Origin: Clostridiaceae bacterium
Lineage (GTDB): Bacteria; Bacillota; Clostridia; Oscillospirales; Acutalibacteraceae
Assembly (NCBI GenBank): GCA_016280595.1
Contig: JAEEHB010000043.1
Span: 1-49,165 of the forward strand
DNA: 49,165 nt
Reading direction: 5' to 3'
The translations under genes were made by a program, and so were the position numbers. The notes below the pieces were generated by a model. The model was not told the origin of the DNA. It ran no database searches and saw nothing but the letters and a program-made list of their open reading frames with translations. Of the stretch, positions 13,152 through 38,807 are shown one piece after another; within the stretch, counting starts at the first letter, position 1; each line of letters begins with the position of its first letter.

Positions 13152-14288
13152 ATGATAACTTCGGCTTATTTTGATAACAGCGCCACCACGATGCCCTGCG
13201 AAGAAGCGGTGCTTGCGGCGGAAAAAGCAATAAAGGAATTCTGGGGAAATCCCTCCTCTCTGCACGGCGTCGGAAACTCCGCAAACGCCCTGCTCGAAGG
13301 CAGCAGAGAAGCAATCGCGGATTTTCTTCACTGCTCACCGGGCGAAATTTATTTCACATCCGGCGGCACGGAAAGCGATAACCTCGCCGTGCTGGGCGCC
13401 GCAGAAAAAATGAAGAGATACGGTAAAAGAATAGTATCAACCGAAATCGAGCACCCCGCCGTTTATGATACGCTCACGAAACTCGGCAACAGCGGCTTTG
13501 AAATAGTCAGGCTTAAACCGGGCGCGGACGGAAACATAAGCGAAAAAGATCTGTTTGACGCCGTAACACCCGACACAATTCTCATAAGCATGATGGCTGT
13601 CAACAACGAAACGGGCGCTGTGCTGCCCGTCGCTTCTGCAAAGAAGGCGGCTGTGAGAGCGGACTCGCACGCCCTTATTCACTGCGACGCGGTGCAGGCA
13701 TTCGGCAAGATGCCGCTAAGACCCTCCTCGCTCGGAGTTGACCTTATGAGCATAAGCGCACATAAGATTCACGGCGTAAAAGGCGCAGGCGCGCTCTACA
13801 TAAGCAAAAACGTCTCCATACTTCCCCGCGTTTACGGAGGCGAGCAGGAGAGCAAGGTGCGCCCCGGCACTGAGGCTGTGCCCGCGATAGCGGCATTCGC
13901 CGCCGCGGTTAAGGCCCTGCCCAATATAAACGCAGAAAGAGAAAAAATGTCCGCCCTCAGAAAGAGGATGCTTGACCGCTTTGCTCTTGAAGGCGGCATT
14001 GAGGTAAACTCCCCCGCGGATTCCTCACCCTATGTGACAAACGTATCCGTAACAGGCATAAAAAGCGAGCCGATGCTCAACTTCCTCTCCGCAAACGGAG
14101 TTTACGTTTCATCGGGCTCAGCCTGCTCAAAGGGTAAAAAGAGCAGAGTGCTCAAAGCGATGAATCTGCCCGGCGGGCGCCTCGAAAGCCCCATAAGAAT
14201 CAGTTTTTCACGATACACCACCGAGGAGGAAATCGACTTCCTCTGCGATATGATTGCCCGCGCGAAAAAAGAAATTTACTCTAAATAA
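13152..14288 (+). CDS. Cysteine desulfurase (NifS/IscS family)
   Basis: This PLP enzyme takes sulfur from cysteine as a persulfide and hands it to acceptor proteins. The 378-residue product shows the PLP lysine in SAHKIHG (Lys205), the cofactor-binding TSGGTESDN (69-77) and the catalytic loop VSSGSACSKG with Cys325. The thiI gene lies 13 bp downstream, the usual pairing in Firmicutes where a dedicated desulfurase supplies sulfur for 4-thiouridine in tRNA. No iscU/sufU scaffold is nearby, which favours a tRNA-thiolation role over general Fe-S assembly. The ribosome binding site is CGGAGAA, 8 bases from the ATG. Confidence 0.94.
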   Translation: MITSAYFDNSATTMPCEEAVLAAEKAIKEFWGNPSSLHGVGNSANALLEGSREAIADFLHCSPGEIYFTSGGTESDNLAVLGAAEKMKRYGKRIVSTEIEHPAVYDTLTKLGNSGFEIVRLKPGADGNISEKDLFDAVTPDTILISMMAVNNETGAVLPVASAKKAAVRADSHALIHCDAVQAFGKMPLRPSSLGVDLMSISAHKIHGVKGAGALYISKNVSILPRVYGGEQESKVRPGTEAVPAIAAFAAAVKALPNINAEREKMSALRKRMLDRFALEGGIEVNSPADSSPYVTNVSVTGIKSEPMLNFLSANGVYVSSGSACSKGKKSRVLKAMNLPGGRLESPIRISFSRYTTEEEIDFLCDMIARAKKEIYSK

Positions 14289-14301
14289 ACCGGAGACCGC
14301 G

Positions 14302-15477
14302 ATGAAAGAAGTTATACTTATCAAAAACGGTGAGCTTGCACTCAAAGGCCTCAACAGGCGCACATTTGAGGACATTCTCATTAAAAATATGAAGCACCGC
14401 CTCTCGTCACTCGGCAAATTCGATTTTTCGGTTGCTCAGTCAACCATAGTCGCCTCCCCTGCGGACGACAGCATCGACCTTGACGAAGCCTGCGAAAAAA
14501 TCGCGAAGGTATTCGGCATAGCGGCATTTTCGAGAGCGGCGGCGGTTGAAAAAGATTTCAATGTGATACTCGACGCCTGCGTCAAATACCTTGAAGATGA
14601 ACTCAGCTGCGCAAAGACCTTCAAGGTTGAAGCGAAGAGGAGCGATAAAAAATTCCCGCTTCAGTCTCCCGAAATATGCAGGGAAACGGGCGGCAGAATT
14701 CTTGAAGCCTTCCCTCACCTCACGGTTGACGTACACTCGCCCGATGTGGTGGTAAATGTTGAAATCAGGGACGAATACGCCTACATTCACGGCAGGCAGA
14801 TAAAAGGCTCGGGCGGTATGCCCGTAGGCTCGTCCGGCAAAGCGTGCCTGCTCATTTCCGGCGGCATTGACAGCCCCGTGGCCGGCTATATGATGGCTAA
14901 AAGAGGGCTTGAACTTACCGCCGTGCATTTTGCCTCTCCCCCCTACACAAGCGAGAGAGCGGAGCAGAAGGTACACTCACTGCTCGGGAAAGTGTCGGAG
15001 TATTCGGGCAAAATCGGTCTGTGGGTAGTCCCCTTTACCGGTATTCAGGAAAAAATCAAGGATAACTGCCCCGAAGAAATTTTTACCGTGATTATGCGCC
15101 GCATGATGATGAGGGTTGCTCAGATAATAGCCCTTCGCGAAAAGGCGGGCGCGCTCATCACGGGCGAGAGCGTAGGTCAGGTGGCAAGCCAGACTCTCTA
15201 CGCCATGATTTGCACCGACAATGTGTGCGATATGCCCGTATTCAGGCCGCTCATAGGTATGGATAAAGACGAGGTCATCGCGATTTCGAGAAAGATAGAT
15301 ACATTTGATATTTCCGTGCTTCCCTACGAAGACTGCTGCACGGTATTCACCCCGAAGCACCCGAGAACAAGGCCGACTCTCGACTATGTGGAGCGCGCCG
15401 AAGAGGCCTTCGATTACGCGCCGATGATAGCCGAAGCGGCTCAGAATGCAAGATTTGTTAACATCAGCGCCAGATAA
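14302..15477 (+). CDS. thiI: ThiI, tRNA 4-thiouridine sulfurtransferase
   Basis: ThiI adenylates U8 of tRNA and replaces the oxygen with sulfur. I start it at the ATG at 14302 (MKEVILIKNG), with CGGAGA ahead; the longer frame begins inside the desulfurase gene. The 391-residue product has the N-terminal ferredoxin-like and THUMP domains (to about residue 165) and then the PP-loop SGGIDSPVAGYMM. It ends after the AANH/PP-loop domain with no rhodanese extension, as in Bacillus-type ThiI, so the sulfur must come from the adjacent desulfurase. CTVFTPKHPRT near the C-terminus is a conserved family segment. Confidence 0.95.
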   Translation: MKEVILIKNGELALKGLNRRTFEDILIKNMKHRLSSLGKFDFSVAQSTIVASPADDSIDLDEACEKIAKVFGIAAFSRAAAVEKDFNVILDACVKYLEDELSCAKTFKVEAKRSDKKFPLQSPEICRETGGRILEAFPHLTVDVHSPDVVVNVEIRDEYAYIHGRQIKGSGGMPVGSSGKACLLISGGIDSPVAGYMMAKRGLELTAVHFASPPYTSERAEQKVHSLLGKVSEYSGKIGLWVVPFTGIQEKIKDNCPEEIFTVIMRRMMMRVAQIIALREKAGALITGESVGQVASQTLYAMICTDNVCDMPVFRPLIGMDKDEVIAISRKIDTFDISVLPYEDCCTVFTPKHPRTRPTLDYVERAEEAFDYAPMIAEAAQNARFVNISAR

Positions 15478-15504
15478 TTATTAACATTCAGGAGATATAC
15501 TGAA

Positions 15505-16758
15505 ATGTCGATATGTGAAATACTGTCGGTCGGCACCGAAATCCTGCTCGGCGATATTCTCAACACAAACTGCAGATTTCTCTCCCGCGCGCTTGCCGAT
15601 ATGGGCATCTCCGTGCTCTACCACGAAACCGTGGGCGACAATGAGCAGCGCCTCGCCGACGCGCTTGAGCGCGCCCTGGGCAGAAGCGATATAGTGATAA
15701 CCACAGGCGGGCTCGGGCCCACACCCGACGATATTACAAGAGACGTCTGCACAAAGGCTTTCGGTTATGAACTCGAATTCAGACCGGAACTTGCCCGGCA
15801 GATTGAAGATTATTTCACAAGAGCGGGCAGAAAAATGGCTGACAGCAACCTGCGTCAGGCATATGCCCCCAAAGAAGCAACCGTGTTCAGAAACTACAAC
15901 GGCACCGCACCCGGTCTCGGTATGAAAAAAGACGGCAAGTGCCTTGTGCTCCTGCCCGGCCCTCCGTTTGAGGCGGAGCCGATGTTCAGGCAGAGCGTTG
16001 TGCCCTTCCTCGAAGAGTACCGCACCTGCACGATAGTTTCGCATCAGGTGCGCACAATCGGCATAGGCGAAAGCACTATGGCTCAGATTGCGGGCGAACT
16101 GCTCGACGGCGAAAATCCCACTGTCGCCCCCTACTGCAAAACAGGAGAGGCGTATCTCAGAGTTTCCGCAAGAGCGCACAATAAAGAAGAGGCGGATCTG
16201 CTCTGCGCCCCCGTGATTGAAGAACTGAAAAAGCGCCTGGGCGATTATGTTTACGGCATTGATGTTGAAGGCGTTGAGCAGGCGGTTGTGCCCCTTCTCA
16301 AAGAAGCAAATCTCACCGTTGCGACAGCCGAAAGCTGCACGGCGGGTTTCATAGCAAAAAGGATAACCGATGTGCCGGGCGCAAGCGCGGTGTTTAAGCA
16401 CGGCATCATCACCTACGCAAACGAAGTAAAGGAAAAGGCTCTCGGAGTAAGCCCCGAAACTCTCGCTCTGCACGGCGCCGTCAGCGAAGAGACGGCAAGA
16501 GAAATGGCGCAGGGCGTGCGAAAAGTGACGGGCGCGGACATCGGCCTTTCGGTAACCGGTTTCGCGGGCCCCGATTCAGACGAAGAGGGCAAAGCGCCGG
16601 GCCTCATATATACCGCTCTTGACGCGCCGGGAGTAACCCTGTGCGAAAAGATTGAAACAGGCAGAAACGACAGAGACTACAACCGCTTTGTTGCCGCCTC
16701 GCGCGCGCTCAACCTGCTGCGCAGATATCTTACAAGCAAACCTCACCAAGGAGGATAA
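15505..16758 (+). CDS. cinA: CinA, competence/damage-inducible protein with nicotinamide-nucleotide amidase domain
   Basis: The 417-residue product has both CinA domains. The N-terminal MoCF-binding domain (about 1-170) starts CEILSVGTEILLGDILNTN and contains TTGGLGPTPDDITRD and LLPGPPFEAEPMF. The C-terminal amidase domain (about 260-415) contains TVATAESCTAGFIAKRIT with the catalytic Ser and SVTGFAGPDS. The protein recycles pyridine nucleotides by deamidating NMN and may hydrolyse ADP-ribose. The ribosome binding site is AGGAGATAT. The next gene, a sortase, begins only 4 bp after the stop, with its ribosome binding site inside cinA. Confidence 0.94.
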   Translation: MSICEILSVGTEILLGDILNTNCRFLSRALADMGISVLYHETVGDNEQRLADALERALGRSDIVITTGGLGPTPDDITRDVCTKAFGYELEFRPELARQIEDYFTRAGRKMADSNLRQAYAPKEATVFRNYNGTAPGLGMKKDGKCLVLLPGPPFEAEPMFRQSVVPFLEEYRTCTIVSHQVRTIGIGESTMAQIAGELLDGENPTVAPYCKTGEAYLRVSARAHNKEEADLLCAPVIEELKKRLGDYVYGIDVEGVEQAVVPLLKEANLTVATAESCTAGFIAKRITDVPGASAVFKHGIITYANEVKEKALGVSPETLALHGAVSEETAREMAQGVRKVTGADIGLSVTGFAGPDSDEEGKAPGLIYTALDAPGVTLCEKIETGRNDRDYNRFVAASRALNLLRRYLTSKPHQGG

Positions 16759-16762
16759 CCCA

Positions 16763-17740
16763 ATGAAAAATAAAATCTGGAGTATACTGTGCCCCGTGTT
16801 TGCGGTGGCCGCGGCAGTGCTTATAGTGCTCTCCGCGCTCAATTTCCGCAGCGGCGCGGGAGGAGAGGAAACCGCCTCTCAGGCAAACTGGTCGCTCGCT
16901 GAAGGCGCTGTTACCGACACGCTTTCCCAAAACCTTGCCGCAGTAATTCCCAACAATATGAAAAGCGTCAAGTATCCCGACGGCATTCTCGAAAATATGA
17001 AACCTCTCTATGCCGCCAACAGCCACACGGCTGCCCTGCTTTCAATTCCGGGCACCGAGATTGACACTCCGGTGGTGCAGAGCAAAGACAACAGCCACTA
17101 TCTCACCTACGATTTCTATGAGAGATATACCACCGAGACGAGCAGCCTCAACTACGGCAATATCTACCTCGATTACCGCTGCAGCAACACGGCGGATATC
17201 TCAAAGAATATGATAATCCACGGCCACACCACAGGCAGGTCCGACGGAATTCCGAAGCAGTCCTTCCGCTCGCTTTACGATTACAGGAGCAAGGATTATT
17301 TCATCAAAAACCCGATAATGAAACTCACCACTCTCTACGGTGAATATACATACAAAATCTGCGCGGTATTCCTTTCCACCACCGAGCCTTCGGCGGATAA
17401 CGGATACTTCTTCAATTATATTTACCCCGATATGTCCGAAAACAATATGGTCGGCTATATTCAGCAGGTAAGGCAGAGGATGCTCTATGATACGGGCGTT
17501 TCGCTCGAGCCCTCCGATAAGATTCTCACCCTTTCCACCTGCATTTACGATTACGGCAAAAGCGTTGACACAAGGCTTGTAGTTGTCGGGCGTCTGCTTC
17601 ACGAGGGCGAAGATATAAGCATTGATACCTCTCTCGTAAAAGACAATCCCGATTACCGCAGACCTCAGATATGGTACAATTCACACGGCAAGACCAATCC
17701 TTATAAAGGCTCCGCGAAATGGGAGCCCAGTCCGGACTGA
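16763..17740 (+). CDS. Class B sortase (first of a tandem pair)
   Basis: Sortases join surface proteins to peptidoglycan by cutting a C-terminal sorting motif. I start the gene at the ATG at 16763, directly after AGGAGG; the open frame reaches back into cinA. The 325-residue product has one N-terminal membrane helix (residues 7-27) and an extracytoplasmic domain. Catalytic residues are His155 (IIHGHTT), Cys260 (ILTLSTC) and Arg271 (DTRLVVVGRL). The TLSTC-x10-R spacing and overall length are typical of class B. Its C-terminal tail (IWYNSHGKTNPY) resembles that of the next gene, so the two arose by duplication. Confidence 0.9.
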   Translation: MKNKIWSILCPVFAVAAAVLIVLSALNFRSGAGGEETASQANWSLAEGAVTDTLSQNLAAVIPNNMKSVKYPDGILENMKPLYAANSHTAALLSIPGTEIDTPVVQSKDNSHYLTYDFYERYTTETSSLNYGNIYLDYRCSNTADISKNMIIHGHTTGRSDGIPKQSFRSLYDYRSKDYFIKNPIMKLTTLYGEYTYKICAVFLSTTEPSADNGYFFNYIYPDMSENNMVGYIQQVRQRMLYDTGVSLEPSDKILTLSTCIYDYGKSVDTRLVVVGRLLHEGEDISIDTSLVKDNPDYRRPQIWYNSHGKTNPYKGSAKWEPSPD

Positions 17741-17788
17741 TAATGTCTCAGGTCTATCACCCGGTAAATAAGACAAAGGAGAACGGAA

Positions 17789-19546
17789 ATGGCAGATAAG
17801 GATAAAAATTTACCCGACGAAATCAACTCAATCGCGGACGAGGAAACTCTGACCGAAATAGACCTCGGCAGCTTTCTCGCGGATAAGGACAGCGAAGAGG
17901 TTGTGTTTGACGGTTATCACAGCGATATAGAAAAAACCGAAAAGAGCCTTGAGGATGAACTTCAGTCTCTTTATGACGATATCATGAGCACGGGCCCCGT
18001 TACCATAGTGCCCCAGAAACTCGACGATATCACCTCGGACGCTCCCGCGGGGGAGAGCCCGGAAGAGCCTAAAGTGGACATCAGGGAAAAGGTGAATTCC
18101 CCCGGGGTTTCCGCAGAGAGTAACGACAGCGCAAAAGAGGATATCATGAGCATGATAGAATCCCTCAAGTCCGACGCTGAGAAAGAGCCCGGCTTTGACA
18201 GGATTCTCACCGACATAGAGTCAAACGAAGATATTGCGCCCTTCGTGAGCGATATTTCAAAATCGGATGATCTCACAAAGGATTTTGCTCCCGAAAAGGA
18301 GCCTCAGGTACCCGTGCAGAGCGCTCCGGCAAAAGCTCCCGGCGGCATTGATACCGACTCGGCGGAGTTTGCGGATGAACTTGCCGCTCTTCTCGGCGAT
18401 AAGCCCGCCCCGCAGGCAGAGGCAACCGCCAAAACCGAAGCCGTCAATCCCGTTGTAAATATTCCCGAAGAAACCGCGCAGGAAAACGGCTTTGTTTTTG
18501 ACCTGCTTCCCGGCGACGGTCAGCGCACCGTAGGCGTTGTGCCCGATGAAATCATCGAGGACGACGGCAAAATCACCAGGAAAGACAGACAGAGGGCAAA
18601 GAGGGAAACCGCGGAGCTCAGCGGCAAAAAATACAAGGGCGATATCATCCGCAGGATTGTGCTTGCAGTTTCGATTATCGTAATTCTTGTCAGCAGCGCA
18701 ATTCTCGCAAACACCTACATCCTTGAGCCCTATAAATACAAGAAAAACGAAACGGCGATTTCGGACACTCTTGACAAAGAGGTTACCGGCACCGTTGACG
18801 AGATAGAAAAAGACGAAGACGACGACACCGAGTATCCCTCGGGCATGCTTGCGAAATACAGGCATTTGTTCAAGGTTAACAGCGACCTCAAGGGCTGGAT
18901 TTCCATACCCGCGCTCGAAATCAATCTGCCCATAGCGCAGGCGTCGGACAATGACTACTATCTTCACAGAAACATTTACAAGAAGTGGACCAACTACGGC
19001 GTGCCCTTCTATGATTACAGAATAGAAGACCTCAAAAACCTGCCGAAAAACACCGTAATCTACGGCCACAATATGCACTATGACGATTTGATTTTCGGTA
19101 TGCTCGAAAACTACCGCGAGCCCGAAGGCTTCAAGAGCGCACCGGTGATTGAGTGCAACACCATTTACGGCGACCACGTATGGTTTGTTTACGCCGCTTT
19201 CATCACCAACTCCGCTCCGAGCCAGGACAACGGCTATGTTTTCCCCTACAACTTCATCGACATCAGCGAGCAGAAGTTTGCCGAATATATCCAGGAAGTG
19301 GACAAGAGAAAATTCTACACTACCGGCGTTGACATCTCCCCGACGGATAAGATTCTTACTCTTTCCACCTGCTGCTACGACTTTGACGGAGGCAGACTCG
19401 TTATAGTCGCCCGCCTCAAGAGAGACGGCGAGTCCGACACGGTTGACACCTCGAGAGTAGTTGTAAACAGCAACCCGAAATATCCTCAGGCGTGGTACAA
19501 CGCAAACAAGAAAACCAACCCCTACGCAAACGACCCCAGGTGGTAA
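17789..19546 (+). CDS. Class B sortase with a large acidic cytoplasmic N-terminal region
   Basis: The 585-residue product has an unusual build. Residues 1-285 are hydrophilic, acidic and low in complexity, with Pro/Ala/Glu-rich linkers. Basic residues (KKYKGDIIRR) precede a membrane helix at 290-312, and the sortase domain covers about 350-585. His427 (VIYGHNMH), Cys528 (ILTLSTC, followed by another Cys) and Arg536 form the active site. By the positive-inside rule the long N-terminus is cytoplasmic. Ordinary class B sortases have only a short N-terminal anchor, so this region may bind a cytoplasmic or divisome partner. The gene lies 48 bp after its paralogue with a good AAGGAG. Confidence 0.88.
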   Translation: MADKDKNLPDEINSIADEETLTEIDLGSFLADKDSEEVVFDGYHSDIEKTEKSLEDELQSLYDDIMSTGPVTIVPQKLDDITSDAPAGESPEEPKVDIREKVNSPGVSAESNDSAKEDIMSMIESLKSDAEKEPGFDRILTDIESNEDIAPFVSDISKSDDLTKDFAPEKEPQVPVQSAPAKAPGGIDTDSAEFADELAALLGDKPAPQAEATAKTEAVNPVVNIPEETAQENGFVFDLLPGDGQRTVGVVPDEIIEDDGKITRKDRQRAKRETAELSGKKYKGDIIRRIVLAVSIIVILVSSAILANTYILEPYKYKKNETAISDTLDKEVTGTVDEIEKDEDDDTEYPSGMLAKYRHLFKVNSDLKGWISIPALEINLPIAQASDNDYYLHRNIYKKWTNYGVPFYDYRIEDLKNLPKNTVIYGHNMHYDDLIFGMLENYREPEGFKSAPVIECNTIYGDHVWFVYAAFITNSAPSQDNGYVFPYNFIDISEQKFAEYIQEVDKRKFYTTGVDISPTDKILTLSTCCYDFDGGRLVIVARLKRDGESDTVDTSRVVVNSNPKYPQAWYNANKKTNPYANDPRW

Positions 19547-19590
19547 TTTAAGATATAATTCTTCATTCTCCCGAAAAAGGAGTTGAGACT

Positions 19591-21810
19591 TTGGCAGTTA
19601 AAGTAACCCTTTTCATACCGGACGCAGAAGCTTACGGCAACCTCAGAGGCATAGCGGCGGAAAAACTCGATGTGCAGCAGACGAATTTTTACACCGACCC
19701 CGCACAGGCGGCAAAGCAGGCCGCGGACCTCGCGAGAGAGGGCAAAACATCAATAGTATTTGCGGGCGAAGAGCATTTCGTACCCGCCAAGTTCGTGTTG
19801 CTCAAAGAAACCGGAGCGAAGATTCTGCGCTCCTCGCTCATAGTTGAGAGAGCGGGAAGCAATCTGCCCACAGACCCGAAAGCGTACAATGTGCAGAGCG
19901 CCTGCCCCGAAGGCGGCAAAGTATATCTTTCAAAAGACGGTCTTTTCAGCGCCGTCGCCTGCGGCATAGGCACGGGCAAGGCGATAATTGTGCCTGCTCA
20001 GGAGGAAAGACTCGCCGACGCAATCGAAGCGGGCGTGTTTGAAGACACCCGCTCCGCAAAAGATAAGATATCCGATTTTATCCGCGATATAAGCGAAACG
20101 GGCAAAACGGTTGCCCTCTTCCCCGGTGCGGGAGCGCAGGCGTTTATGAAGGTAATCGGCAGTGTCGATCCTCTGACGGACCTTTTCACCGTTGCGGATA
20201 CAGAGCAGGACGAAACCGCGCCGAACCCGGATATGAGCGAAAAAGCGCTCGCCGCAGAAAACGCGAAAGCCGCCCGTGACGCGGAAGGCAGAGAACTCGG
20301 AGTATATATTTCGATGCCTTCGGATGAAGACACCGTCACTCTCGCTACGGCAAACGGGGAAAGCGCGAAAATAGAAGTCCTGCACGCTCTTGAAGGAGAA
20401 GACAAAAAGCACCTTCTTGCCGCCGCGATAATGCGTCTTTGCGAAATGACGGAGGACGCCGCCTGCAACGGCATTCAGGTGCCCACATATAAAGAAACGC
20501 ATCTGTCAAAGAAAGGCTTTATAGCAGTGCTTTGCGGCATAGGCGCGGCTGTGCTCGCCTGCCTTGTGGCCTGCATCATTCTTTTCAGGCAGAGCGCATC
20601 CGTTTCGGAATCAACGGCCGAAGTATCAAACACGGGCGCCGACGAATTTGCGGCGGTTGAATACGACTCACGCGATTTATCGGACACCTTCCTTAATTAC
20701 TACGAAATGACATCCGAAAGCGATCTGCTTACGGAAACCACTCGCGATATAATAACATCCACCTTCTATGCCGGCAACCCGGGCATCGCTTCGGGCTACG
20801 GCTTCACCACCTCGCCCACATCAATTCCGCAGCTTGAAACCTCCGCAACAGTCACCGTTACCGAGACTTCTCTCACCGAAACGGGGAGCACGGCGGAAAA
20901 AGGGCAGACAACCACCACGCGCAAGGGCGAATCCTCATCCTCCACAATCACCGCGACTGCCGCGCCCGCTTACAGCGGCACTTTTACCTTCACGGTTTAC
21001 GGCTGGGGTCACGGCGTGGGAATGAGTCAGGACGGCGCAAAGGTTATGGCTCGAAACGGCAAATCCTATAAAGAAATTCTTTCCGCCTATTACCCCGGCA
21101 CCACTATCGTGCAGGGCGACCCGAATACTCCGATGTACGCCGAGGAGCCCAAGGAAGACGGCAGCGGCGGTATGACTCTGCTCGAATTCCTGTGCAAAAC
21201 CGTCAAGCAGGAAATAGGCGACAACGCCCCCTACGAAGCGCTCAAGGCACAGGCTGTGTGCGCCTACACATACGCTATGAGAAAAGGCAACTTCGGCGCG
21301 GGTCAGACTATGGACTACGGCTACAACTACGCGGGCACCAATGTTGAAAGAGCGGTTATGGAAATTCTCCAGATTGATTCCGCCGAGCAGCAGCCTCACG
21401 CCACCTACATTTCATACGGCGGCCAGTATATAAACGCGGTTTATTATTCAAACTGCGCAGGCACCACCACATCATCCGTAAACGCCTGGGGCGGCTCAAA
21501 GGTGAGTTACCTGTGCGGCGGCACAAAGAGCCCCGAAACGACCGAGGTTTCCACCGTCACATATTCCGCCCAGGAGATGCTCTCGCTCATAAAGGGCTAC
21601 GCATCGAGAAACGGGCTTAATCCCAGGATAAGCGAAAACCCCGCCGAATGGCTTAACATAGTAAGCCACGACGGAGCATATAATAACAGTATCGGTTATA
21701 TTGACAGAATCGACGTATGCGGTATGTCAATGGGCGGCAACGATTTCAGAACTTCTCTTATGAGAGGCAAACTGAAATCCCACTGCTTCACCATCACTTA
21801 TACGCCGTAA
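19591..21810 (+). CDS. Membrane protein with cytoplasmic domain and circularly permuted SpoIID/LytB domain
   Basis: Translation starts at a TTG (19591), 8 bases after AGGAG. Residues 1-305 form a cytoplasmic region I do not recognise, with repeated VYLSKDGLFS-like strands. A membrane helix (309-332), a Thr/Ser-rich linker (340-460) and an extracytoplasmic SpoIID-type region (462-739) follow. SpoIID proteins cut denuded glycan strands as lytic transglycosylases. Here the GWGHGVGMSQ...YYPGTT segment (471-505), normally the C-terminal end of the fold, comes first. The catalytic half, VKQEIGDNAPYEALKAQAV (from 538, with Glu541 in the place of the catalytic Glu), comes second and the protein stops after FRTSLMRGKLKSHCF. 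The two preceding genes are sortases. Confidence 0.85.
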   Translation: MAVKVTLFIPDAEAYGNLRGIAAEKLDVQQTNFYTDPAQAAKQAADLAREGKTSIVFAGEEHFVPAKFVLLKETGAKILRSSLIVERAGSNLPTDPKAYNVQSACPEGGKVYLSKDGLFSAVACGIGTGKAIIVPAQEERLADAIEAGVFEDTRSAKDKISDFIRDISETGKTVALFPGAGAQAFMKVIGSVDPLTDLFTVADTEQDETAPNPDMSEKALAAENAKAARDAEGRELGVYISMPSDEDTVTLATANGESAKIEVLHALEGEDKKHLLAAAIMRLCEMTEDAACNGIQVPTYKETHLSKKGFIAVLCGIGAAVLACLVACIILFRQSASVSESTAEVSNTGADEFAAVEYDSRDLSDTFLNYYEMTSESDLLTETTRDIITSTFYAGNPGIASGYGFTTSPTSIPQLETSATVTVTETSLTETGSTAEKGQTTTTRKGESSSSTITATAAPAYSGTFTFTVYGWGHGVGMSQDGAKVMARNGKSYKEILSAYYPGTTIVQGDPNTPMYAEEPKEDGSGGMTLLEFLCKTVKQEIGDNAPYEALKAQAVCAYTYAMRKGNFGAGQTMDYGYNYAGTNVERAVMEILQIDSAEQQPHATYISYGGQYINAVYYSNCAGTTTSSVNAWGGSKVSYLCGGTKSPETTEVSTVTYSAQEMLSLIKGYASRNGLNPRISENPAEWLNIVSHDGAYNNSIGYIDRIDVCGMSMGGNDFRTSLMRGKLKSHCFTITYTP

Positions 21811-36767: not shown

Positions 36768-38807
36768 ATGAAAAACAAACTCACGGTCATAACGGCAATC
36801 GCTATGAGCATCCTTCTTGCGGCATCGGTTTTCACGGCCTGCTCTTTCAATAAAGAAAGCAGCGAGGAGTCAACCACTCTTTCGCCGGATGACAGCTGGC
36901 ACCCCGGCACCGATGAACCCTATCAGCCCGTTGAGCTCGAAAGCGTAGAACTCGCGGCCATAGTGTCGGAGGCTCTGGGCGAAGAGGCGAAGGACTTCAA
37001 CGGCGACATCAATTCTCTTTCCAAAGAACAGATTGAGAAGGTAAAGGCAGTTGCCGAAAAAGAAGGCTATATTGTAGGCACCGATGAAAACGGCGACACC
37101 GTTATTCAGAAAGACAGCAATATAAAGGTAAGCGAAGCCTCAAGCGAAAAGACAAGCGAAATTCTCTCCAAAGCAGGGGTTGAAAACACCACCCGTCTTT
37201 CAAGAGAGCAGTTTGAAAAGGTCTCAAAGGCGGCCGATGACAAAGGCGCCACCGCCGTGACGGATTCAAAAGGTAATGTAAAGATTATAGAAACCACCAA
37301 GGAATCCACTACTGCGGCTCCCAAGACCACAAAGGGCAGCGGCACCACCAAAGAGAATTCCACCTCAAAGGGTGACAGCAATACCACCGCAGCCACAGAG
37401 GCCGCAACTCCCGCTCCCGTTACCACCACAAAGAGCAACGTTAAGCCCACCACATATTCGGGCGGCGGCGAACTTGCTCCCACCAATCGTACAACTCCCA
37501 TTACCACGAGTTACAAACTCACCGGTATGGATTCATCCGCCGTTAACACCTACAGCGCGGGCGGCAACAGCATCTTCGTTTCCTCCGCTGCCGTAAATGA
37601 CGGCACAATAGCGGTAGGCAACGCGTTTACAAACTCCTCCGAAACGGCAAGTTCGGACGCGCTTATAGCAAAGTTCAATTCATCGGGCAAAAAGGTCTGG
37701 AGCGATATGACCAAGTCCGACGATATGACCGACTATGAAGATGTTGCGGTGCTTGCAGACGGAAGCATAATCGCCGTAGGCAGCACTCTCTCGGAAAACC
37801 TTGTTTCCGATGCCGAATACAGATGCAAGGGCACTGTTGAAGGCGTTATCGCCAAATACAGCGAAGACGGCAAGAGGCAGTGGATAAAGCTCTTCGGCGG
37901 AAGCGGCGGCGATATGGCTTACGCGGTTGCTCCCACTTCGGACGGCGGTTTCGTTATCGGCGGCAAAACCGATTCAACCGACTATGACCTCAAAGGAGTA
38001 AGCGGCGAAAGAATCAAGGCGTTTGTAGCAAAATACGACGCAAGCGGCAAGCGCGAATGGGTTTCCGCACTCACCTCCACGATGCACAGCGCGGTAAAAG
38101 ATATTACGGCAGCCAAAGACGGTATTTATGTTCTTATAGAAACTCTTGCCAAGGACGGCTCTTTTGCTTCACTCAAAGCCGCCGAGCGCAACAAGAAATA
38201 CTCCGTAATAGCAAAATACGATTACTCCGGTAACAAGCAGTGGCTCAAGGACTTCTTCGAGTCCGGTCAGGTTAACCTTGTTTCAATCACTGCTGCCAAC
38301 GGCGGCGGCTGTGTTGCGGCAGGCTCCTATTCCTTCAGCAAAGACGGCCCCGTAGGCACATTTGCCGACCTTCACAACGGCGGCCCCACCGGCACGTTTG
38401 ACGGCATAATCGTATGCCTTGAGCCCTCAAGCACCATTAAGTGGAGACAGCCTCTCATCGGCTTCCAGAGCGACTACATCACCGGCATAGCAACTCTCAA
38501 AGAGGGCTACGCCTTCACAGGATACACCACCTCCACCAACAGAGACTTCCCGTTTACCAACAAGGGCGAATATGACTCCTTCGCGGGCGTGGTTTCAAAC
38601 GGCGGCACGGTTACCCTGATAAGATCATTCGGCGGCTCCGCCTCCGACAGAGCGATGTCGGTATGTACCAACGGTGTGGATACTCTTTACACCTGCGGCT
38701 CGACCTACTCGGCAGACGGCGACTTTGCTTCGTGTGATGCCAAGAGTAACGGCTCGGCTACCGTGGCATTCGTAAACAAATACAGCATCGCCAGAGAAAA
38801 CGTCTGA
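36768..38807 (+). CDS. Lipoprotein with duplicated N-terminal repeats, Thr-rich linker and beta-propeller-like domain
   Basis: The 679-residue exported lipoprotein has its lipobox at FTAC (Cys25). Two similar units follow: residues 61-115 (LSKEQIEKVKAVAEKEG...) and 128-176 (LSREQFEKVSKAADDKG...), an internal duplication. A Thr/Lys/Ser-rich linker (177-247) leads to a domain of about 430 residues made of repeats ending in AKY-x-x-x-G-K-x-x-W (for example VIAKYSEDGKRQW, FVAKYDASGKREW, VIAKYDYSGNKQW) alternating with GGSGGDMAYAVAPTSDGGF-type strands, as in SBBP/WD-like propellers. It is a surface protein of unknown ligand. GGAGG precedes the ATG and a terminator follows. Confidence 0.8.
   Translation: MKNKLTVITAIAMSILLAASVFTACSFNKESSEESTTLSPDDSWHPGTDEPYQPVELESVELAAIVSEALGEEAKDFNGDINSLSKEQIEKVKAVAEKEGYIVGTDENGDTVIQKDSNIKVSEASSEKTSEILSKAGVENTTRLSREQFEKVSKAADDKGATAVTDSKGNVKIIETTKESTTAAPKTTKGSGTTKENSTSKGDSNTTAATEAATPAPVTTTKSNVKPTTYSGGGELAPTNRTTPITTSYKLTGMDSSAVNTYSAGGNSIFVSSAAVNDGTIAVGNAFTNSSETASSDALIAKFNSSGKKVWSDMTKSDDMTDYEDVAVLADGSIIAVGSTLSENLVSDAEYRCKGTVEGVIAKYSEDGKRQWIKLFGGSGGDMAYAVAPTSDGGFVIGGKTDSTDYDLKGVSGERIKAFVAKYDASGKREWVSALTSTMHSAVKDITAAKDGIYVLIETLAKDGSFASLKAAERNKKYSVIAKYDYSGNKQWLKDFFESGQVNLVSITAANGGGCVAAGSYSFSKDGPVGTFADLHNGGPTGTFDGIIVCLEPSSTIKWRQPLIGFQSDYITGIATLKEGYAFTGYTTSTNRDFPFTNKGEYDSFAGVVSNGGTVTLIRSFGGSASDRAMSVCTNGVDTLYTCGSTYSADGDFASCDAKSNGSATVAFVNKYSIARENV

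Follow-up and report, generated by a model that had tools for sequence, protein, structure and literature searches.

A circularly permuted SpoIID/LytB domain predicted at a sortase-linked locus of Oscillospirales

In canonical SpoIID proteins the catalytic core comes first and a GHGVGMSQ segment follows. A gene in a 49,165-nucleotide contig from a Clostridiaceae bacterium (JAEEHB010000043.1; 'the window' hereafter means this whole stretch) presents these segments in reverse, and raises the question of whether an enzyme domain has been naturally rewired there and, if so, how often and in which cellular setting. The open reading frame (739 residues, TTG start, no internal stop) is continuous and no frameshift is needed. 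The placement of the GHGVGMSQ/YYPGT segment ahead of the catalytic core, as proposed in an earlier note on this DNA, is borne out by NCBIfam, Pfam and PDB-chain matches: the C-terminal end of TIGR02870 (model length 338) and positions 8-165 of TIGR02669 are placed in swapped order (Table 1), Pfam SpoIID (PF08486; 37.7 bits, above its cut-off of 23) covers residues 528-571, and in phmmer comparisons the PDB chains 4rwr, 5i1t and 5txu each align their C-terminal piece with the start of the query and their N-terminal piece further on. Against TIGR02669 the whole protein scores 130.5 bits (cut-off 83.3). BLAST comparisons with canonical relatives reproduce the swap: for the protein of locus L082, query positions 74-277 fall on 256-442 and query positions 1-46 on 443-488.

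Table 1. Features of the gene cluster and of the permuted protein, in window positions.
Feature	Position	Strand	Basis
Class-V aminotransferase, first gene of the conserved cluster	13152..14288	+	Pfam Aminotran_5 E 9.2e-69; same position in relatives
ThiI	14254..15477	+	Pfam ThiI, THUMP, ThiI_fer; conserved neighbour
CinA, full length (MoCF, KH, CinA_C)	15505..16758	+	Pfam; conserved neighbour
Class B-like sortase 1	16763..17740	+	Pfam Sortase E 1.6e-9; NCBIfam class B sortase TIGR03064, below cut-off
Class B-like sortase 2, long N-terminal extension	17789..19546	+	Pfam Sortase E 4.1e-9; TIGR03064, below cut-off
Whole gene: CinA-like domain, membrane helix, linker, circularly permuted SpoIID/LytB domain	19591..21810	+	
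Degenerate CinA-like domain, ~residues 1-293	19591..20469	+	hhalign, Foldseek
Predicted membrane helix, ~residues 313-331	20527..20583	+	Mean hydropathy of 2.91 across 19 residues (positions converted from L001)
Ser/Thr-rich linker, probably extracytoplasmic	20584..20967	+	Sequence; topology inferred
Displaced C-terminal segment of SpoIID (GHGVGMSQ...YYPGT), residues 462-508	20974..21114	+	TIGR02870 291-337; PDB chains
New linker between old C and N termini	21115..21177	+	Gap separating the two profile matches
SpoIID catalytic core, residues 530-739, the protein's end	21178..21807	+	TIGR02669 8-165 over residues 530-688; remainder from alignment with permuted relatives
Predicted catalytic Glu541	21211..21213	+	Aligned to position 101 in chain 5txu (C. 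difficile SpoIID)

The cut point is the turn between the strand that ends in SHCFTI and the strand that leads into GHGVGMSQ. Judged by eye, the last strand of the core in canonical relatives turns straight into the GHGVGMSQ strand, and the window domain starts and stops at that very hairpin turn, with a short linker connecting its old ends. The length of this join, taken as the difference between the two match ends, has a median of 15 residues (range 10-126) in 85 distinct permuted proteins. A search of the window for the GHGVGM motif at DNA level, with at most one mismatch, gave a single site (21007-21024; 0.04 expected by chance), so there is no second copy that would follow the core. The earlier description of a clean circular permutation, not a truncation, thus holds: neither half lacks a part, the catalytic Glu is retained, and the domain is opened at a hairpin turn. 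The start given there, 20983, lies inside the first strand; about 20968-21807 describes the domain better. On sequence evidence, then, the window domain is a natural circular permutation of one enzyme domain.

Since the window stems from a draft genome (78% complete), an assembly or annotation artefact, or a truncated tandem-domain protein, has to be weighed. The continuous reading frame speaks against it, and homologues with the same order exist throughout the genus: 43 of 45 genomes, the window's own included, share the permuted order (the exceptions being G005, with no match, and G032, with a canonical gene only), which excludes chance or assembly error. Moreover, proteins with two C segments, as expected of tandem-duplication intermediates, numbered zero among the 207 ORFs (192 distinct) that hold both halves. 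Taken with these findings, an artefact is extremely improbable. A phage origin was also considered and rejected, as the two phage records that match each cover less than 80% of the query and no PHROG match was found at E 0.01. One unannotated phage stretch (MT835515.1, 27990-28565) carries a weak SpoIID-core match of 27.9% identity.

An AlphaFold2 model of the permuted domain, built on an alignment of 16 sequences (pLDDT 84.3, pTM 0.77), has SpoIID structures as its best Foldseek hits in the PDB (5i1t, E 2.5e-6, probability 1.00; 4rwr, E 4.5e-4 and 1.4e-3), the next best hit being at E 2.4. The alignment to 5i1t is sequential (TM 0.42, rmsd 7.7 A, 273 columns), which fits a permutation and is no proof of shifted termini. 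Residue E101 of C. difficile SpoIID is described as catalytic in PMC6221140. All 98 distinct permuted domains and all 145 distinct canonical ones carry Glu at this position; both sets were gathered by similarity searches and are thus not a random sample. Two Cys columns are invariant in 25 same-genus rows and are not conserved across groups; a disulfide is therefore not claimed.

The region ahead of the permuted domain yields no Pfam match, CinA included, in its 293 N-terminal residues. Profile comparison of 39 family N-termini (36 used) with 18 CinA proteins by hhalign gave a probability of 98.4% (E 4.7e-15), while a four-row alignment reached only 6.6%, and the best Foldseek PDB hit of the N-terminal model (pLDDT 78.0, pTM 0.49) was CinA 4ct8 (E 3.2e-11, TM 0.34). 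In CinA an AESCTGG-type motif is catalytic. The stretch aligned with ATAESCTAG of CinA reads ALFPGAGAQ; with this motif lost, the domain is probably inactive as a CinA enzyme. A full-length CinA gene lies upstream of this CinA-like/SpoIID fusion, beyond the two sortases.

All genes from 13152 to 21810 are co-directional, with the SpoIID gene last, and their spacing and conservation mark them as a putative operon. The aminotransferase at its head may be cysteine-desulfurase-like, judged by its gene company, and the start codon of sortase 1 was chosen inside a longer ORF. Elsewhere in the window, a 679-residue ORF (36768-38807, +) has no Pfam match at E 1e-4. The cluster with its sortases is also present in L063, L065 and L066, which carry the same long type of gene as the window, and in 14 of 15 hand-chosen regions around long-type genes, where one or two sortases were detected (the fifteenth, L220, is 1.6 kb and too short to tell). 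The Ruminococcus-type permuted genes (L070-L078 and L080) lie in the same cluster, of which the detected pieces vary: in L072 and L073, for example, its CinA is a short protein of 189 residues. A short CinA-like protein accompanies two sortases in L068 and L069. No sortase was found within the fetched flanks of L064 (M23 type) or L067 (short type), so that the sortase link is limited to the long type and most Ruminococcus-type genes.

The same position in the cluster can be held by a canonical-order SpoIID, as in L082, L129 and L140. As at the window locus, ThiI and sortases lie upstream in L082; in L129 and L140 the upstream genes are an aminotransferase, ThiI, one sortase and a CinA protein that, by eye, is a short C-domain form. 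These three proteins belong to the same clade as the permuted sortase-locus proteins, from which they differ in their canonical order and in having no match to the window-type N-terminal profile. By eye, a SleB-type cell-wall hydrolase look-alike stands between sortase and canonical SpoIID in L140 (6669-7694) and L129 (5008-5925). Canonical SpoIID also adjoins sortases in L094, L116 and L123; in L103 it follows aminotransferase and ThiI, with no sortase present. Furthermore, single proteins combine MoCF or CinA domains with a sortase and a canonical SpoIID in L109 (5163-8837) and L095 (5475-8858; its SpoIID part is below the Pfam cut-off), and a sortase with a canonical SpoIID in L248 (1-2238, cut at the locus edge). 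Natural fusions thus link CinA, sortase and SpoIID functions.

Beyond the genus, a sample of the family holds permuted matches in 27 of 150 genomes (29 rows, one with an internal stop), all at E <= 1.2e-52, the next match being at 5.2e-23. In a class sample of 291 genomes, the full-length permuted proteins among the matches listed are the two of the window's own genome. The second of these (contig C21; L002, 976-2406, -) has an M23 peptidase domain (Pfam E 6e-22) fused ahead of its permuted SpoIID and is a putative two-activity peptidoglycan hydrolase. Among 80 named loci, 18 are permuted (L063-L078, L080 and L113, with L069 cut by a contig end), L070-L078 and L080 being Ruminococcus or Oscillospiraceae records. 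Plasmid records of the Actinomycetota genera Tsukamurella, Rhodococcus and Nocardia (the last with a partial core match) are permuted too; Thermus and Nostoc records have the canonical order. In the phylum of the genome of L113, 66 of 100 genomes have a match, and 13 further loci, a biased pick of best matches to a permuted query or hand-chosen cases, comprise 12 permuted and one canonical. L113 itself, from a record titled Chlamydiae bacterium, groups in the tree with Tsukamurella and Rhodococcus proteins, and the title may be wrong. Judged by eye and from profile order, the cut lies at the same hairpin in the window type, in Ruminococcus and in Actinomycetota. The permuted SpoIIDs make up a conserved family, and the window protein is no isolated case.

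The genus also allows the permuted form to be set against sporulation genes. SpoIIP was detected in 24 of the 45 genomes, Spo0A_C in 24 and canonical SpoIID in 22. SpoIIP and canonical SpoIID occur together in 21 genomes and are both undetected in 20; G022 has canonical SpoIID only, and G036, G005 and G009 have SpoIIP only (G009 with Spo0A undetected as well). This association is strong (Fisher p 1.2e-8, a guide only, as the genomes are related). Spo0A, SpoIIP and canonical SpoIID are all undetected in 20 genomes, seven of them at least 91% complete in a set where many are incomplete, and all 20 keep a permuted gene; its role therefore probably lies outside sporulation. The window's own genome (G000) gave no SpoIIP and no Spo0A match. 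The joint non-detection of the three genes in 20 of 45 genomes is a likely case of sporulation loss within one genus.

The explanation that we favour, with good though incomplete confidence, is a membrane-tethered lytic transglycosylase with a circularly permuted SpoIID/LytB domain, working in a vegetative, sortase-linked envelope system; its activity, topology, co-transcription, sortase partnership and the role of the CinA-like domain are all as we infer them. The old N and C termini would be joined by the short linker, with new termini in the hairpin turn before GHGVGMSQ, and through the permutation the tether would attach at the GHGVGMSQ strand and no longer where the core begins. As the active-site Glu is kept, the domain would most likely cleave peptidoglycan glycan strands, in a vegetative and not a sporulation process, probably by opening or trimming strands at the sites of sortase action. 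The CinA-like domain, predicted to be cytosolic and to have lost its enzyme motif, would probably serve as a sensor or scaffold; any link to the function of CinA is guesswork.

LytB is an amidase enhancer, and the permuted domain might accordingly be a non-enzymatic or regulatory relative of SpoIID, an enhancer of this kind or a wall-binding module, and not a lytic transglycosylase. A further point in that direction is that C. difficile SpoIID depends on prior action of the amidase SpoIIP to attack purified peptidoglycan (PMC6221140), and the 78% complete genome of the window has no SpoIIP match. However, a pure binding module would not need the Glu that is invariant at the E101 position, and one of the paralogues is itself fused to an M23 peptidase domain. 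We regard a non-enzymatic role as unlikely and retain the lytic transglycosylase.

How often the order has changed was read from a tree of 101 domains (249 columns), on which the canonical label needs four changes. Forcing all 52 permuted rows into one clade is rejected (lnL 187 lower, p-AU 1.8e-67); this group was set by label, and the finer tree groups were named after the first tree. One clade of window type plus Ruminococcus type has p 0.047 with the 101 rows and p 0.0035 with 94 rows that include more canonical sortase-locus proteins, and in a core-only quick tree without Actinomycetota-type rows the two types again form two separate groups. At least two changes of segment order are well supported by these sequence trees, and three or more are likely, with the direction of change set by interpretation. 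Since some relatives hold the normal order at the same cluster spot, this looks like a rewiring of one enzyme that came about naturally and probably more than once.

If instead one ancient permutation had been passed on by descent and transfer, the apparent independent origins would be a product of tree error or of reversions to the canonical order. The cut point, which by eye and in profile order seems not to differ between the groups, suits this reading, as does the one gene cluster that window-type and Ruminococcus-type genes share. One clade is not rejected either for the 15 Actinomycetota-type rows (p 0.42) or for the 38 canonical sortase-locus rows of the 94-row focused tree (p 0.0645), which makes one gain with a reversion possible; in the focused tree, two gains take two changes, and a single gain followed by a reversion could take just as many. 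The rejected all-permuted clade, the low p values for window plus Ruminococcus type and the canonical proteins at the same cluster position all argue against it, and we hold a single origin to be rather doubtful. The fuller proposal is put forward tentatively, as less than probable in all its parts together: several independent permutations at the same hairpin, at least two at one Oscillospirales cluster position and at least one in Actinomycetota, would have been selected for re-tethering the catalytic cleft in an undescribed vegetative CinA-sortase-lytic transglycosylase envelope system.

A lytic transglycosylase family of several phyla includes permuted members that annotation does not distinguish by name. 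Related genomes with one order or the other at a shared cluster position amount to a natural experiment on the origin and effects of a permutation. The cluster and the CinA/sortase/SpoIID fusions suggest that gut Oscillospirales have an envelope system not yet characterised, and a vegetative system of this kind could explain why bacteria with no apparent ability to sporulate carry SpoIID genes. In the literature searched (titles and abstract starts of the records listed, with few subscription papers among the sources), no description was found of a permuted SpoIID or of this CinA-sortase-SpoIID system.

Compared with known systems, the window protein shares with the SpoIID lytic transglycosylases (4rwr, 5i1t and 5txu) both conserved segments and the catalytic Glu, and SpoIID structures are the best matches to its predicted fold. 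It differs from them in its swapped segments, its CinA-like N-terminus and its score against the TIGR02870 equivalog (101 bits, below the cut-off of 234.75), and the permuted form occurs in genomes without detected SpoIIP or Spo0A. With respect to the SpoIID/LytB domain proteins of TIGR02669, it lies above the family cut-off, but its two matched stretches are in reverse order. Permuted SpoIID/LytB proteins also occur in Actinomycetota (Tsukamurella L183, Rhodococcus L185 and Nocardia L187), where the order and, by eye, the cut point are the same; L183 and L185 are annotated as SpoIID/LytB domain protein, and L187, with its partial core match, is unannotated. They differ from the window protein in having 105-115 residues between the matched pieces and are distant from it in the tree.
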